The translations under genes were made by a program, and so were the position numbers. This document shows positions 9,558-26,045 of a stretch of DNA of 27,296 nucleotides, piece by piece; the stretch's first letter is position 1, and each line of letters starts with the position of its first letter. The stretch is from a virus. Location: positions 1-27,296 of IMG/VR virus record IMGVR_UViG_3300020478_000050. One strand, 5' to 3'. The notes beneath the pieces were generated by a model, which searched no databases, was not told the origin of the DNA, and saw only the letters and a program-made list of their open reading frames with translations.

Positions 9558-10100
9558 ATGTCAGTATTAAACGTTTTAGATACGCAAACCGTAAGTGCAT
9601 CGGGTACTGCGTATATCACAGTGAAAACGGGAGTAATTAGAGTATTAGCAACTGCTGCATCCAGCATCCAAGTTGGGGCAGGTCCTGCTATAACCCTCGC
9701 TGCTGGTGTTCCTGAACTAATCTCGGTAGGTAAACCGAAAACTGCAAAGATTTCTGCAGCAACTGATGCTAATCCTACAGTCCTTACAATAGAAGGATAC
9801 TCAAATGGTGGTCGTCATACGTTCACTGCTAATGACACTATTACCACATCTAATGGTGGAGACACTGCATTTGTAGCAGCATTTGTTACTGCTGCTAGTG
9901 CTGGTAAGAAAGCTGCTTCCGTTACTGCTACTACTATTACTACTGACCTCGATGCTTCTGGTGCTTCTGCTGACTACGCTTTATCTGAAGCGGATGTAGT
10001 TGCTGGCACTATTCCTCTGGTACAAAGAACTGTATTACTGACTGCAGGTTCTGGTTCAGGTGGTGTCGTTGTCGAACAAGTCCAGATTGTTGGAGGCTAG
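9558..10100 (+). CDS. Unrecognised virion-like protein between gp16 and the H1-like gene
   Basis: This 180-residue protein is rich in Ala, Thr, Val and Gly with no cysteine. It looks beta-rich: short hydrophobic strands separated by glycine/asparagine turns. It has no signal peptide or membrane helix. A GGAAG about 10 nt upstream may be the ribosome binding site, and a late promoter precedes it at 9524. Its placement among packaging and head genes behind a late promoter suggests a structural protein, possibly a capsid decoration or fibre. That role is inference from context; I do not recognise a domain. Confidence 0.6.
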   Translation: MSVLNVLDTQTVSASGTAYITVKTGVIRVLATAASSIQVGAGPAITLAAGVPELISVGKPKTAKISAATDANPTVLTIEGYSNGGRHTFTANDTITTSNGGDTAFVAAFVTAASAGKKAASVTATTITTDLDASGASADYALSEADVVAGTIPLVQRTVLLTAGSGSGGVVVEQVQIVGG

Positions 10101-10101
10101 T

Positions 10102-11931
10102 ATGTCTGACGTTAATGAAGCAAAGGTAGATGCTGGTAAGTCTCCTGAAACAAAAGAGAAGGAGAGAAACATTCGTAAGTTTGGTGTTAATTGGAACCAG
10201 GCAGGTCACGGTAAACTAAGGAGAGCACTCCATAGATCAAACCGTGGAGATAAGAAAATTAAAGGTGATAAGCCACAACTAGAACAAGAAGGAGTGATCG
10301 CTCTTGTTAAAAAAGGCAAGAAAAAACATGATGAAGCAGTCAATAAGAAGAAGGTCAAAGACAGAAAAGCCGTTCCTTATGCTGCTTTGGCACAGGGTTA
10401 CAACCCCAAGGGTGAGACTATCTCTGAAGAAGAGTACGATAGAATTAAAGATCGTCGTCTTGAGCGAGGTGGAAGTGCTCCTGGTGGCGATGATGTCTCT
10501 CCATCGACATATAAATCGTCTAAGAAGTATGATCCGAAGGCGGCGAAGAAGGCTTCAGATAAGGCACTTGCGAATGTCAGGGCAGCAATTATTGCACAGC
10601 ATGGTCCAGGTGCAATCTACTCACCAAAGAAAGAAGAGTGGGAAGCAGCAGCGTTAGAAGTTGCGGTTGATTACTTCTATGAAGAAGGTATCAATGAAGA
10701 AGGATTAGACCTCATTATAGAAGAGGTTGGTCTAGAAGATTTTGTAGAGTATATACTTGATCCACCTCCAGAATATCTGGAAGAGGAAAGATCTGCTAGA
10801 AAGGCATCTGCTAAAGCACCTTCATATGAGAAGGTAAAGGCAAAGGTTGATGCTGCTGATGCTGCACGTAAAGCAGCAGGTAAAGGTGAATATGCTAAGA
10901 CTGCAGCTGCTAAGAGAAACTATGGTGATGAGGATAATACAATTCATGACGACAAACCTGCTGCTAAAAAGAAAGCAGCACCAAAGGCTAAAGCAAAACC
11001 CAAGGCTAAGCCAAAGGTCGTTGAGATTAGAAAGAAGGTTGAGAAGTCGGTGCCTAAAGCGAAGGCAAAGCAACCTGCTAAGAAACCAGAGAAGAAGGGT
11101 CTTTATAGTAAACTTAAGGACACCGTTTCGAAAGGTGTCGAAAGGCATAAGGCAGCTACTGGTAAACTCAAGAAGAGATATGTTGCTGCACGTGCCAAAG
11201 GTAAAGTACCAGAGAAACGTGCTAAAGAATTTGCCAAAGGTGTTAAATCTGGGGTAAAGGCTACTGTCAAATTTGCTAAGGATGTTAAGAAGGTCGTTAG
11301 TGAAGAGGAGCAACTAGATGAAGGTCTAGCATCTGCTTTAGTTAAGACAGCAGTAAGAGTAATTAGAGATAAAAATAAGAAGAAGTCCGAGAATACAGAT
11401 GAGAAGAAGGATGTCAATGAAAAGATGACCTTCAGTAGATTCATCGAAGAGGGCAACAAAACTGTCAGACAATATCAAAAGTCCAAAACTCAAGTCACAG
11501 GGCACATCTCTGCTGACAGGGGTGATTCCGAAAAAAAGAACCGATCCTCTAGAAAAAATCTAGAGAAGGATCTCAAGAAGCATGGGATCGGTCACTCAAA
11601 AGGTAAGGGCAAGTATAAGTATGACAGCGGTGAAACTGGCACAGAAGTTTCCTATCAGACTTCTAAACCTAGTAAAATGTCTAAACGTCGTTTTGGGAAG
11701 GTGATGCGTCGTCTAGGACGCAAGCACGGTCAAGAATCCGTGATAACAAAAGATAAGGATAAACCAGCACGTTTACATGACACCGAGGCTAAGAAGCCTG
11801 GGAAGTCAGTTAACATAGGTAAGTCCAAACCTGGTTCCCATCCTACAGGACAGGGAGAAACTTCTGGTACTAAAGTCAGAAGCGGTAAACTACCCAAAAA
11901 GACAAGCAAAGGAGCATATCATTATGGCTGA
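10102..11931 (+). CDS. Large lysine-rich protein with histone-H1-like tract and C-terminal internal-protein-like unit
   Basis: This protein has 609 residues. The ATG at 10102 is preceded by GGAGG at 10092, so it is preferred over the in-frame ATG at 10060 inside the previous gene. Segments in order: a basic N-terminus; a motif recalled from other cyanophages (EEEYDRIKDRRLERGG, about residue 112); an acidic helical block with two GLDLIIEE/GLEDFVEYILD-like repeats (about 195-220); an H1/AlgP-like Lys-Ala-Pro tract (about 286-333); a helical basic region; then from Met442 (nt 11425) a unit starting MTFSRFIEEGNKTVRQYQKS and containing GHISADRG and KMSKRRFGKVMRRLGRKHG. The charge pattern suggests DNA binding, perhaps co-packaged in the head. 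Its location before the terminase gene and the capsid-targeting-like motif at 442 fit this, but the function is inferred. Confidence 0.7.
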   Translation: MSDVNEAKVDAGKSPETKEKERNIRKFGVNWNQAGHGKLRRALHRSNRGDKKIKGDKPQLEQEGVIALVKKGKKKHDEAVNKKKVKDRKAVPYAALAQGYNPKGETISEEEYDRIKDRRLERGGSAPGGDDVSPSTYKSSKKYDPKAAKKASDKALANVRAAIIAQHGPGAIYSPKKEEWEAAALEVAVDYFYEEGINEEGLDLIIEEVGLEDFVEYILDPPPEYLEEERSARKASAKAPSYEKVKAKVDAADAARKAAGKGEYAKTAAAKRNYGDEDNTIHDDKPAAKKKAAPKAKAKPKAKPKVVEIRKKVEKSVPKAKAKQPAKKPEKKGLYSKLKDTVSKGVERHKAATGKLKKRYVAARAKGKVPEKRAKEFAKGVKSGVKATVKFAKDVKKVVSEEEQLDEGLASALVKTAVRVIRDKNKKKSENTDEKKDVNEKMTFSRFIEEGNKTVRQYQKSKTQVTGHISADRGDSEKKNRSSRKNLEKDLKKHGIGHSKGKGKYKYDSGETGTEVSYQTSKPSKMSKRRFGKVMRRLGRKHGQESVITKDKDKPARLHDTEAKKPGKSVNIGKSKPGSHPTGQGETSGTKVRSGKLPKKTSKGAYHYG

Positions 11932-12064
11932 GGAACGTAGAAAGGTATGCCAGTTCTGTGGACTTAAACCCCCACAAGGACATTGGAAACCCTACAGTTG
12001 GACAGAGAGGCATGAAAAGAATTGCCCAATGAATCCAGTTAACGGATACAAAGCACCAGCATGA
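11924..12064 (+). CDS. 46-residue zinc-finger-like microprotein
   Basis: This short basic protein has Cys9-x2-Cys12 (CQFC), then His30-x4-Cys35 (RHEKNC), which could form one C2HC zinc site, and three tryptophan/tyrosine residues near its middle (HWKPYSW). It overlaps the preceding gene by 8 nt, and its last four bases form an ATGA overlap with the next start, as expected of a coupled late operon. The spaced Cys/His pattern and the couplings argue it is real despite its size. The family is not recognised. Confidence 0.6.
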   Translation: MAEERRKVCQFCGLKPPQGHWKPYSWTERHEKNCPMNPVNGYKAPA

Positions 12065-12225
12065 AGACCTTCCAGCAATTCATGGAAGTAGCACCACCTT
12101 CTCCTAAGTCGGAGAGGATGGTCAAACATATAAAAAAATCATATGCTAAAGATGGCAAGTTAACTGATAGGGAAAAGTCAATAGCATATGCTACTGCATG
12201 GAAACATTACAATAAAAAGAAATGA
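12061..12225 (+). CDS. 54-residue protein with capsid-targeting-like N-terminus
   Basis: The protein starts MKTFQQFMEVAPP, which resembles the N-terminal capsid-targeting sequence of T4 internal proteins (MKTY-EFI-E followed by Ala). The rest (SERMVKHIKKSYAKDGKL, then EKSIAYATAWKHYNKKK) is a small basic domain that I recall from many cyanophage proteins, often ending with IAYATAWK. It starts in an ATGA overlap with the 46-residue gene and ends in an ATGA overlap with the next one. The inferred role is an internal head protein matured by gp21 cleavage after Glu9; this is not proven. Confidence 0.65.
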   Translation: MKTFQQFMEVAPPSPKSERMVKHIKKSYAKDGKLTDREKSIAYATAWKHYNKKK

Positions 12226-12485
12226 AATCACTCAAACAATTCTTTAACGAAGGTGAGGAAAACGAGATAAATGAATCTCCTTCTATTTTAAAACCAAAGA
12301 GTAAAAAGAAGGTAGGTTACGATGGACCTACTCAAAAGTTTGAGTTTAAACAAGATGCTAAAACCAAGAAGGACACTGAAGGTTTAAAGAAAATAAAAGA
12401 CCAAAGAATTAAGAGAAGGTATAAGGCTAGAGCACGTAGGAAACCACCCGCAGGTGGAGTCGATGTCTGGAGAGCAAAAGAGTAA
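12222..12485 (+). CDS. 87-residue basic protein with capsid-targeting-like N-terminus
   Basis: It begins MKSLKQFFNEGEENEINESP. The first ten residues again follow the MK-(T/S)-x-x-QF-x-E pattern, and EINE-S gives a plausible gp21 site (hydrophobic-x-Glu). The remainder is strongly basic and ends RRYKARARRKPPAGGVDVWRAKE, which suits DNA contact. It is joined to the previous gene by an ATGA overlap and is the last gene before the petF promoter region. No known domain is recognised; an internal, DNA-associated head protein is the working guess. Confidence 0.65.
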   Translation: MKSLKQFFNEGEENEINESPSILKPKSKKKVGYDGPTQKFEFKQDAKTKKDTEGLKKIKDQRIKRRYKARARRKPPAGGVDVWRAKE

Positions 12486-12568: not shown

Positions 12569-12865
12569 ATGGCATCTTATCAAGTAACTGTAAAAGACAC
12601 CGAAGGAAATGAAACTACTTTCGAGTGTGCATCCGACGAGTATATTTTAGATAAAGCAGAGGAAGAAGGTGCTGATGCTCCTTATTCTTGTCGTGCTGGA
12701 GCATGTAGTACATGTGCTGGTAAGATCGTTTCAGGCACAGTAAATCAAGAAGATCAATCTTTCTTAGATGACGATCAACTGGAGCAAGGATTCGTTCTAA
12801 CATGCGTTGCGTATCCAACCTCTGACTGTGTTATCGAACTCGGACAAGAAGAGAATTTATACTAA
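12569..12865 (+). CDS. petF: Plant-type [2Fe-2S] ferredoxin
   Basis: This 98-residue soluble ferredoxin accepts electrons from photosystem I and passes them to ferredoxin-dependent enzymes. The cluster ligands are all present: Cys41 in [10 protein letters not shown], Cys46, Cys49 and Cys79 (TCVAYPTSD). The sequence is acidic, ends EENLY, and has cyanobacterial length, so it appears intact. It has its own sigma70-like promoter at 12516 and is followed by a late octamer. petF is a known auxiliary metabolic gene of cyanophages. Here a ferredoxin-using reductase, pcyA, lies 0.5 kb downstream on the opposite strand, which suggests a functional pairing. Confidence 0.95.
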
Positions 12866-12872
12866 GACCAGG

Positions 12873-12880
12873 AATAAATA
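12873..12880 (+). promoter_or_regulatory. Putative late promoter (AATAAATA)
   Basis: AATAAATA lies 27 nt before the ATG at 12908 and is followed by CTCAGGTATT, so AATAC and GTATT can form a 5-bp hairpin. It would drive the 54-residue gene and petE late. Confidence 0.5.
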
Positions 12881-12907
12881 CTCAGGTATTACGGGAAAGA
12901 AATTATC

Positions 12908-13072
12908 ATGTCCCACTATACCATTGGCTATCATGATAGCCTCCAAATCAGACATGAAATTTGCGAGTATGCAATGAATGCATATGAAGCAATACAGCAA
13001 AGTAAAGAGGATGTTCCCGAATTAGAGGGGCATCCTCATTTTATTGACTCGGTAATGAAGGAGGAAGAATGA
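12908..13072 (+). CDS. 54-residue conserved cyanophage-type hypothetical protein
   Basis: This small acidic protein (MSHYTIGYHDSLQIRHEICE, then YAMNAYEAIQ, ending VMKEEE) resembles short hypothetical proteins I recall from several cyanomyoviruses; it has no cysteine pair, signal or membrane helix. It sits between petF and petE, starts 27 nt after a late-type octamer, and its stop overlaps the petE start as ATGA, so it is probably co-translated with plastocyanin. Function unknown. Confidence 0.65.
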   Translation: MSHYTIGYHDSLQIRHEICEYAMNAYEAIQQSKEDVPELEGHPHFIDSVMKEEE

Positions 13073-13428
13073 AACACGAAATAATGTGGTGGATGAGCAG
13101 ACTTACTATAATGCTCTCATCCCTATTCCTATCATTCGCATTGGCATCTCAAGCATATGCTGCTGAGATACAGATGGGTTCTAACGGAATGTTAGTCTTC
13201 GAACCATGTGAATTAAACATCGATGTTGGTGAGACAGTTACGTTTGTGAATAACGAACTACCTCCTCACAACGTGGTGTTTGCAGACAACCCAGAACTAG
13301 GGAGTAATGACCTACAGTTTGTCCAAGGTGACACTATTGATGTTACTTTTGAGAAAGCTGGTGATTACTTTTTCCAGTGTGACCCTCATGCTGGTGCTGG
13401 AATGAAGGGAGTAATCCATGTATCGTAG
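13069..13428 (+). CDS. petE: Plastocyanin precursor
   Basis: This 119-residue precursor of the thylakoid-lumen copper protein carries electrons from cytochrome b6f (or cytochrome bf donors) to photosystem I. An N-terminal signal peptide (hydrophobic stretch about 13-27, ending ASQAYAA) precedes the mature domain starting near EIQMGSNGMLVFEP. The type-1 copper ligands are visible: His67 (PPHNVVF), Cys104, His107 and Met112 (FFQCDPHAGAGMKG). One further cysteine, Cys47, is unusual. The start overlaps the upstream stop as ATGA and has GGAGGAAG just before it, a strong ribosome site. The 3' end overlaps the end of convergent pcyA by 86 nt. petE is known in T4-like cyanophages. Confidence 0.95.
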   Translation: MKHEIMWWMSRLTIMLSSLFLSFALASQAYAAEIQMGSNGMLVFEPCELNIDVGETVTFVNNELPPHNVVFADNPELGSNDLQFVQGDTIDVTFEKAGDYFFQCDPHAGAGMKGVIHVS

Positions 13429-22675: not shown

Positions 22676-22939
22676 ATGCCATCAGAACCAGCACTTGACA
22701 TCGTAAATTCCGTATTTGCAGGTCAGAAAGACCTGTCAGATTACGTTGATTCTCGTATGAAAGAACTAGCCGTCGATAGTATAGAGACACTTAAGAAAGA
22801 CATTGGTAAAACAATGTTTGCTCCTACTCCCGACGAGCCAGAGGAAGAGGAATCTTCTACAGAAGAACCCGAAACCGCCGTTGCAACAGCAGAACCAGAG
22901 GAACCTACAGATGAAACTGATAACAGAACAGATCAATGA
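22676..22939 (+). CDS. Prohead core protein, gp67-like
   Basis: This 87-residue protein has a helical N-terminus (FAGQKDLSDYVDSRMKELAVDSIETLKKDIGKTMF) and a very acidic tail (PDEPEEEESSTEEPE and onward). Position between gp20 and gp21, small size and the acidic tail match T4 gp67, an internal core protein cleaved during head maturation; sequence identity to T4 gp67 is not evident to me. The last 29 nt overlap the gp21 start. It could equally take the place of gp68. Confidence 0.65.
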   Translation: MPSEPALDIVNSVFAGQKDLSDYVDSRMKELAVDSIETLKKDIGKTMFAPTPDEPEEEESSTEEPETAVATAEPEEPTDETDNRTDQ

Positions 22940-23555
22940 TACTAAGGTTATCACCGAAGGTAAAGGCTCTAATAAAAGAACCTTTATTGAGGGTGTGTTC
23001 TTGCAGGGAGCAATAAAAAATCGTAATGGACGTATGTATCCACTCCAAACTCTTACTAAAGAGGTGGAGAAGTACAACGAAAATTACATTAAAAAAGGTC
23101 GTGCGATGGGAGAACTAGGACACCCTGATGGTCCTACTATCAATCTAGACCGTGTGTCACATCTAATTACTTCTCTTAGACAAGAGGGTAATAACTACGT
23201 AGGTAAGGCACGTATATTAGACACTCCTATGGGACGTGTCGCTAAAGAATTACTCGATGAAGGCATTAAGCTCGGTGTGTCTTCACGGGGACTCGGTTCG
23301 ATTAAAGAAGAGAACGGAGTAAAAGTAGTATGTGATGATTTTGTTCTCGCTACTGCTGCTGATATTGTTGCTGATCCATCTGCACCTGATGCTTTCGTAA
23401 ATGGAATCATGGAAGGTAAGGAATGGGTTTGGAGTAATGGAGGCATTTCTGAACAAAAACTTGACTCAATTAAGTCAAGAATTGATCAAGCTTCACGGAC
23501 TCAAATTGCAGAAAGAAAGGTTTCCGCATTTAATGAGTTCTTGCAAAGTTTGTAA
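22911..23555 (+). CDS. 21: Prohead core protease gp21
   Basis: This 214-residue serine protease is assembled in the prohead core and cuts head proteins after hydrophobic-x-Glu sites. Conserved features are KNRNGRMYP, GRAMGELGHPDGPTINLDRVSH (His71 and His84 are candidates for the catalytic histidine) and LGVSSRGLGS (Ser124/Ser125, one of which is the nucleophile). The frame extends upstream to 22803, but the ATG at 22911 gives the family N-terminus MKLITEQIND and is preceded by GAGGA. The C-terminus (AFNEFLQSL) is normal. Confidence 0.92.
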   Translation: MKLITEQINDTKVITEGKGSNKRTFIEGVFLQGAIKNRNGRMYPLQTLTKEVEKYNENYIKKGRAMGELGHPDGPTINLDRVSHLITSLRQEGNNYVGKARILDTPMGRVAKELLDEGIKLGVSSRGLGSIKEENGVKVVCDDFVLATAADIVADPSAPDAFVNGIMEGKEWVWSNGGISEQKLDSIKSRIDQASRTQIAERKVSAFNEFLQSL

Positions 23556-24695: not shown

Positions 24696-26045
24696 ATGTT
24701 TAATTCAGAATCATTGCAGGAAAAGTGGGAACCCATTCTAGAGCATTCCGAGATCGATGGGATCAAGGACAAGTATAGAAAGGCCGTTACCTCCGTCCTG
24801 TTAGAAAACCAAGAAAGATTCCTCAAGGAGGAGGCTGGCGTTCTTAACGAAGCTGCTCCTACCATGAGTGCAGGTACTGCTGGATTCAGTGGTTCCTCCA
24901 CCGCTACAGGTCCTGTTGCTGGTTTCGACCCAGTTTTGATTAGTCTAATCCGACGCTCAATGCCTAAGCTTATTGCTTATGACATTGCTGGTGTTCAGCC
25001 TATGACTGGTCCTACTGGATTGATCTTCGCAATGAGATCACGCTACGGTACAACCAGAACAGGTACTTCCAACGAAGCATTCTACAACGAAGCAGATACA
25101 GAGTTCTCAGCAGAGAACGCAGCAAGCGATCTAGGTCGTACTGCACAGTCTGGATCTAACCCAGGTCTGCTAAACGCTTCTGGAACCTACAATACTTCAG
25201 ACGGCATGCCAACGGCAGAGGCTGAAGCACTAGGTGACGCTGCTGGAAACCAGTTCGCTGAAATGAACTTCAGCATTGAGAAGGTAACAGTGACCGCTAA
25301 GTCACGTGCCCTCAAAGCTGAGTACAGTTTAGAATTGGCTCAAGACCTTAAGGCAGTTCACGGACTAGACGCTGAGTCTGAACTCGCAAACATCCTCTCA
25401 ACAGAGGTACTTGCTGAGATCAACCGTGAAGTTGTAAGAACTGTTTACAAGATCGCACGTCCAGGTGCTCAGAATAACACAGCAACCGCTGGTATTTTCG
25501 ACCTCGACGTTGACTCCAATGGTAGATGGTCAGTTGAGAAGTTTAAGGGTCTACTCTTTAACATCGAAAGAGACATGAACGCAATCGGGCATGAAACTCG
25601 TCGTGGAAAGGGTAACATCTTGATCTGCTCTGCTGATGTTGCTTCTGCACTATCAATGGCTGGCGTTCTTGATTACACTCCTGCTCTTGCTGGTAACAGC
25701 AACTTGCTTCCAGATGACAACAGCAGCACACTTGCTGGAACTCTGAACGGACGCATCAAGGTCTATGTTGACCCTTACTCTGCTAACGTAAGTGACCGTC
25801 ACTTCTACGTTGCTGGATACAAAGGTTCTTCTGCCTATGACGCTGGACTGTTTTACTGCCCATACGTTCCACTACAGATGGTTCGTGCTGTTGGTCAGGA
25901 CACCTTCCAACCAAAAATTGGCTTTAAGACTCGTTATGGCATGGTTGCCAACCCATTCGCTGAGGGAACTGCTCAGGGAAGCGGTGCTCTTACTGCTAAT
26001 GCAAACCGTTATTACAGACGTGTTCTTGTTGACAACCTTATGTAA
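24696..26045 (+). CDS. 23: Major capsid protein gp23
   Basis: This 449-residue HK97-fold protein forms the hexamers of the head. Diagnostic cyanophage stretches include SLIRRSMPKLIAYDIAGVQP, TGPTGLIFAMRSRYG, LKAEYSLELAQDLKAVHGLD and CPYVPLQMVRAVGQDTFQPK. The N-terminal ~52 residues form the propeptide: GVLNE-AAPTM contains a hydrophobic-x-Glu site, so gp21 should cut after Glu52. The start ATG follows AAGAG. No strong late octamer is visible in the 35 nt after gp22, so it probably reads from the gp22 promoter. A strong terminator follows 26 nt after the stop. This is the best gene here for placing the phage among cyanomyoviruses. Confidence 0.97.
   Translation: MFNSESLQEKWEPILEHSEIDGIKDKYRKAVTSVLLENQERFLKEEAGVLNEAAPTMSAGTAGFSGSSTATGPVAGFDPVLISLIRRSMPKLIAYDIAGVQPMTGPTGLIFAMRSRYGTTRTGTSNEAFYNEADTEFSAENAASDLGRTAQSGSNPGLLNASGTYNTSDGMPTAEAEALGDAAGNQFAEMNFSIEKVTVTAKSRALKAEYSLELAQDLKAVHGLDAESELANILSTEVLAEINREVVRTVYKIARPGAQNNTATAGIFDLDVDSNGRWSVEKFKGLLFNIERDMNAIGHETRRGKGNILICSADVASALSMAGVLDYTPALAGNSNLLPDDNSSTLAGTLNGRIKVYVDPYSANVSDRHFYVAGYKGSSAYDAGLFYCPYVPLQMVRAVGQDTFQPKIGFKTRYGMVANPFAEGTAQGSGALTANANRYYRRVLVDNLM

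Follow-up and report, generated by a model that had tools for sequence, protein, structure and literature searches.

A predicted S-adenosylmethionine lyase behind a conserved prohead-protease-type junction in a T4-like cyanophage head gene cluster

Introduction

The T4 internal proteins IPI, IPII and IPIII counter restriction (PMC12373910, PMC9026906). In T4, the first ten residues direct a protein to the capsid, chiefly through residues 4 and 7, whereas processing depends on residues 8 and 10, with the protease gp21 cutting after L/I-x-E (PMC9026906). IPII and IPIII start with MKTYQEFIAE/A (a slash marks the cut here and below), and IPI starts with MKTFKEF, followed after a spacer by TITE/A. 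Here we describe an open reading frame (ORF) of 609 amino acids (aa) in the IMG/VR record IMGVR_UViG_3300020478_000050, in which an element of this type is internal and precedes a predicted S-adenosylmethionine (SAM) lyase domain. The window analyzed is the whole record, a 27-kb fragment (27,296 nucleotides [nt]), and all statements on this phage refer to it.

Among phage enzymes that act on SAM, Svi3-3 binds its substrate through Gly56, Tyr58, Glu69, Ser71, Gln104, Glu105 and Ser106 (PMC7877911). T3 SAMase also inhibits the host SAM synthetase (PMC8406200), which by analogy is a possible second action of the lyase described here. A homolog of the window domain, gp6 of cyanophage S-CREM2, was found in purified virions by mass spectrometry (19 unique peptides), and the study proposed that it enters the cell with the DNA (PMC10665884). 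The passages of that study considered here mention neither a tag nor a cleavage site of gp6.

Results

The window is part of a T4-like cyanophage whose close relatives in phage collections are Kyanoviridae, e.g., P-RSM6, S-WAM1, S-SZBM1 and P-SSM7. The 609-aa ORF belongs to its head/neck gene cluster and is organized as follows:

10102..11931, + strand: 609-aa precursor, with a modular basic N-terminal part and a C-terminal SAM lyase domain (phrog_26015, 2.4e-106; phrog_12788, 2.4e-71)
11425..11451, + strand: (M)TFSRFIEE/, internal tag-like element ending in the cleavage-type site IEE/G (motif 1)
11452..11928, + strand: predicted SAM lyase domain, 159 aa (G53xY55, 11608-11616; E65xS67, 11644-11652; QES, 11731-11739)

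The open frame extends from 10060 to 11931, and the likely start is the ATG at 10102, which follows the stop codon of the upstream gene.

We predict with high confidence that the C-terminal domain is a SAM lyase. It scored 33.4 bits against the phage SAM lyase family PF23780 (curated cut-off, 28), and each of the 30 aligned members hit this family with E ≤ 0.01. Searches of PDB sequences with the single domain and then with a profile found no relative; only fold comparison did so. An AlphaFold model of modest confidence, built from 30 sequences (mean predicted local distance difference test score, 60; most core blocks, 63 to 81), had T3 SAMase (Z 11.8 and 11.7) and Svi3-3 (Z 10.2 and 9.4) as its four best structural matches, the next, unrelated chain scoring 8.5, and Foldseek ranked 6znb first. 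The domain keeps the Svi3-3-type motifs G53xY55, E65xS67 and Q94-[ED]-[SA], matched by motif and order rather than from a printed alignment. Gly53, Tyr55 and Gln94 are invariant among the homologs, and Glu65 is present in at least 90% of them.

The initial annotation had noted three T4-like capsid-targeting motifs in a row, each followed by strongly basic sequence, namely MTFSRFIEEG (nt 11425), MKTFQQFMEVA (nt 12061) and MKSLKQFFNEG (nt 12222). Their positions and the basic character of what follows were confirmed (net charges of +28, +9 and +13, respectively), but the three do not form a set of equivalent N-terminal tags. Motif 1 satisfies all four T4 determinants (F4, F7, I8 and E10) but lies inside the 609-aa ORF, and a start codon is possible at its position in only 14 of 81 relatives. 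As the other 67 have no ATG, GTG or TTG there, motif 1 is generally not a translation start, and this was rejected as a general explanation of the element.

Motif 1 is instead very probably a conserved prohead-protease-type site. The N-terminal parts of the relatives' ORFs are highly divergent, and their last 168 aa are conserved, beginning with this element. In clade I, all 34 distinct junctions (80 records) read [ST][FY]xx[FY][LI]xE/GNxT, and the conserved residues are encoded by varied codons; the extraction pattern included the Glu and the Gly-Asn, and residues -8, -7, -4 and -3 were not preset. In clade II, which includes S-CREM2 gp6, [LIVMF]xE/[STA]S occurs in 42 of 42 distinct junctions. 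This clade comprises stand-alone forms with a tag (MKTFKEFIQE/SSLTR) and fusions without one (EEVDLSE/TSLAR), and the cleavage-type site is present in both. S-CREM2 and P-SSM2 encode the lyase by itself, in a gene that opens with the tag; P-SSM2_114, a member of the window's clade, has the N terminus MRTFQEFLQLCE/GG.

Three further gp21-type sites lie upstream in the same ORF:

10111..10119, + strand: VNE/ before the AKVDAGKSPE module (Glu precedes AKVD in 14 of 14 contexts, [LIV]xE in 9 of 14)
10420..10428, + strand: ISE/ before the EEYDRIKDRRLERGG module ([LIV]xE in 20 of 20 distinct upstream contexts)
11314..11322, + strand: LDE/ before the GLASALVKTAV module (3 of 3 contexts)

In the window, [LIV]xE sites thus precede AKVD, EEYD, GLASALV and the lyase. 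Among precursors, variable linkers ending in [LIV]xE were found before the RxDxWHPDP module in 31 of 31 distinct contexts and before ExYDxxxD in 20 of 20. The module-boundary test was mixed for AKVD (9 of 14), KGLW (12 of 15) and the small families, and KKCW went against the rule (1 of 6). In these counts each cut had been placed at a Glu by visual inspection, which leaves P3 as the sole residue tested independently. Because the upstream modules, too, follow variable linkers ending in a site that fits the gp21 rule, the 609-aa ORF resembles a head polyprotein. Modules and sites of this kind are also found in gp160, an S-CREM2 protein detected in virions.

The presumed cutter and a presumed maturation site are encoded in the same cluster:

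22911..23555, + strand: gp21-type prohead protease, gene intact (PF03420 Peptidase_S77, 3.7e-32)
24843..24851, + strand: LNE/AAPTMSAG near the N terminus of the major capsid protein gp23, fitting L/I-x-E

The tag itself is widespread. In S-CREM2 it starts 6 of 219 genes (shuffle mean, 0.29). Five of these six encode members of the set of 52 virion proteins, the SAM lyase being joined there by a kinase, a cytidylyltransferase and two unnamed proteins. The pattern MKTFxxF[LIMFV]xEA yielded at least 91 matches in viral contigs, 89 of which open ORFs no shorter than 60 aa; among the matches listed, one of the two exceptions is cut by a contig end, and the tag is followed by nucleotidyltransferases, a P-loop kinase, an acetyltransferase (GNAT), a DPBB protein or certain window modules, among others. 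A start of the M[RKN]FxxF[LI]xEA type is kept by the cytidylyltransferase in almost every one of 80 viral contigs. By eye, possible ADP-ribosyltransferases also carry the MKTFxxF[LIMFV]xEA tag (L267-L353, among the matches listed). S-CREM2 gp12 (L086 7704-10313), a virion protein annotated as a Cas9-like nuclease, has a tag-like LRFASFMAEA about 16 residues past its annotated start, which may be misplaced.

The other two motifs start the small genes downstream of the lyase:

12061..12225, + strand: 54-aa protein with the targeting-like N terminus MKTFQQFMEV (no Glu10) and a YATA-type helical module; its start overlaps the upstream stop (ATGA)
12222..12485, + strand: 87-aa basic protein with the tag-like N terminus MKSLKQFFNE/G; its start likewise overlaps the upstream stop (ATGA)
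12267..12275, + strand: INE/S, second cleavage-type site of the 87-aa protein (residues 16 to 18)

Motif 2 has F4, F7 and M8 but lacks the T4 processing residue, since position 10 is Val where gp21 needs Glu. No L/I-x-E site was found in the sequence of the 54-aa protein, which may be targeted but not trimmed. In motif 3 (L4, F7, F8, E10), Leu4 and Phe8 replace Tyr4 and Ile8, so the 87-aa protein largely conforms to the ten-residue N-terminal T4 tag, whereas in the lyase gene the element is internal. A role of motif 3 as the tag of the 87-aa protein is plausible. INE/S, which like IEE/G of the lyase fits the gp21 consensus, is probably a better cleavage-type site than the tag's own; relatives L009-L011 have IDE/A at this boundary, though the preceding stretch differs. 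The 87-aa protein is probably a second tagged internal protein. Hence, of the proposed T4-type targeting and gp21 cleavage, what holds is motif 1 as a processing site and, less strongly, motif 3, because the site is conserved, the same element is an N-terminal tag in relatives and tagged proteins occur in published virion proteomes. The idea of three equivalent internal proteins gives way to a polyprotein junction whose cargo, the SAM lyase, had escaped the initial annotation.

The gene order of the cluster is fibre, gp13, gp14, gp15, gp16 (small terminase), a phrog_682 protein, the 609-aa ORF, three small ORFs, ferredoxin, plastocyanin, and gp17 to gp23 including the gp21-type protease. The phrog_682 protein (9558-10100) adjoins gp16, and its counterpart in S-SZBM1, matched by position only, is S-SZBM1_195, among the most abundant virion proteins of that phage. 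The head gene cluster encloses the ferredoxin and plastocyanin genes (12569-13428), which fall between gp16 and gp17. A 46-aa zinc-finger-like protein (CxxCG..PxGH.RP...KHE.NC; 11924-12064), present in most clade I relatives, overlaps the end of the lyase ORF.

Discussion

The lyase fold with its active-site motifs, the conserved junction and the tagged stand-alone homologs were computed here. We propose that the ORF at 10102-11931 encodes a prohead-core polyprotein whose C-terminal 159 aa are a SAM lyase. The tag-like TFSRFIEE/G would assist in bringing the lyase precursor into the core of the prohead. Cleavage after the Glu by the cluster's own gp21-type protease would release a free lyase with the new N terminus GNKT..., and the upstream modules would probably be separated as well, at their own [LIV]xE sites. 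Carried in the head, the lyase would enter the cell with the DNA and destroy SAM on arrival; the phage would most likely benefit through a blunting of SAM-dependent restriction or another methyl-based defense. We estimate the probability of this explanation as a whole at about two in three. Packaging and cutting of the lyase in the window phage are likely, and its injection with the DNA is somewhat less so, though still favored. Anti-restriction as the benefit is the least certain step and is put forward tentatively.

Several observations weigh against this proposal. S-SZBM1_194, a 707-aa homolog of the window ORF that is 77% identical over the lyase domain, is absent from the 30 virion proteins reported for S-SZBM1 (PMC9146016), the nearest relative that has a virion proteome, as are its tagged neighbors S-SZBM1_191 and S-SZBM1_192, the former of which should have been easy to detect. 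The enrichment seen in S-CREM2 is not found in this phage, where one of three tagged genes, that of the cytidylyltransferase, was detected. Because the lysine-rich lyase part of S-SZBM1_194 offers only five usable tryptic peptides (7 to 30 aa), its non-detection weakens packaging without refuting it. The Fisher p of 0.003 for the S-CREM2 enrichment is optimistic, as the tag pattern was fixed after the S-CREM2 N termini had been viewed. The sequence [LIV]xE occurs 258 times in precursors versus 150 in shuffles, and the reversed pattern is enriched as well (234 versus 149), making the raw enrichment nonspecific; the module-boundary test was therefore relied on instead. Finally, the structural model of the domain is of low confidence, and no mapped cyanophage cleavage site was found in the literature searched.

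The alternative that survives best, which we nevertheless consider unlikely, is that the lyase is just an ordinary enzyme of the late cytoplasm, or else a basic protein with a structural role; the junction would be a flexible linker, and the protein would be neither packaged nor cut. The missing S-SZBM1_194 and the nonspecific site counts fit this view, but it does not account for the homolog in S-CREM2 virions, for a junction that is kept in both architectures while the flanking linker varies, for stand-alone forms that begin exactly with a T4-like tag or for the location of the ORF between gp16 and gp17.

Two others are improbable. The ATG at 11425 might be a real second start, yielding a short tagged SAM lyase beside the long protein. 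T4 gp21 has an internal start, the ATG is present in the window and its close relatives, and the short form is a gene of its own in P-SSM2. However, most relatives have no start codon at this position, and the AAGGA about 13 nt upstream of 11425 is farther away than usual. The retention of the SAM-contacting residues between clades that share only about 33% identity argues against a non-enzymatic, basic DNA-binding head protein that keeps the lyase fold, as its net charge of +28 over 159 aa could suggest. Lastly, chance resemblance of all three motifs is highly improbable and is already refuted for motif 1: the strict tag with Glu10 has one meaningless antisense match besides its two sense matches in the window (11425 and 12222), so that the pattern can arise by chance, but it is expected only 0.42 times per simulated window with any start codon and 0.1 times with ATG, and against chance stand the 34 conserved junctions and the many tagged ORF starts in viral contigs.

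Early phage proteins are made only after entry, so a lyase delivered from the head would precede restriction or methylation. We rate at slightly under even odds the broader possibility that marine T4-like phages make modular head polyproteins that are cut at module boundaries into small injected proteins, the last of which strips SAM at entry, and that the same tag loads many other enzymes, such as nucleotidyltransferases, kinases and acetyltransferases. The tag would then be a simple sequence rule for predicting which unnamed cyanophage genes encode injected proteins, a question so far touched by virion proteomics case by case only, and the T4 internal-protein paradigm would extend to abundant ocean phages and to enzymes.

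The T4 internal proteins share with this locus the M-K-[TS]-[FYL]-x-x-F tag, an optional spacer, the [LI]xE/ site and the head-protein context. No relation was found between the protein bodies, and the element here is internal to a polyprotein, with a SAM lyase rather than a GmrSD inhibitor as the cargo. T3 SAMase and Svi3-3 (PF23780) have the same ferredoxin-like fold and GxY, ExS and QES active-site motifs, whereas the window lyase follows a prohead-protease-type site and belongs to a cluster of head genes. S-CREM2 gp6, named "SAM hydrolase (virion protein)" (PMC10665884), is a homologous domain from a T4-like cyanophage; unlike the window lyase, it is a stand-alone protein with the N-terminal tag MKDFDSFLEE, and its gene is distant from those of the head. 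Polyvalent proteins (PMC5512222) are likewise long, multi-domain and thought to be packaged and injected, but the boundaries here resemble prohead protease sites, and most modules are short, basic and of unknown function. The ejection proteins of SPN3US, whose long propeptides are cut repeatedly after Glu by the prohead protease, follow an AxE motif, and no modular polyprotein with a terminal enzyme was described among them (PMC10052503). Within the literature searched, the link of a SAM lyase with a T4-type tag and prohead-protease sites is new, as is the polyprotein form.
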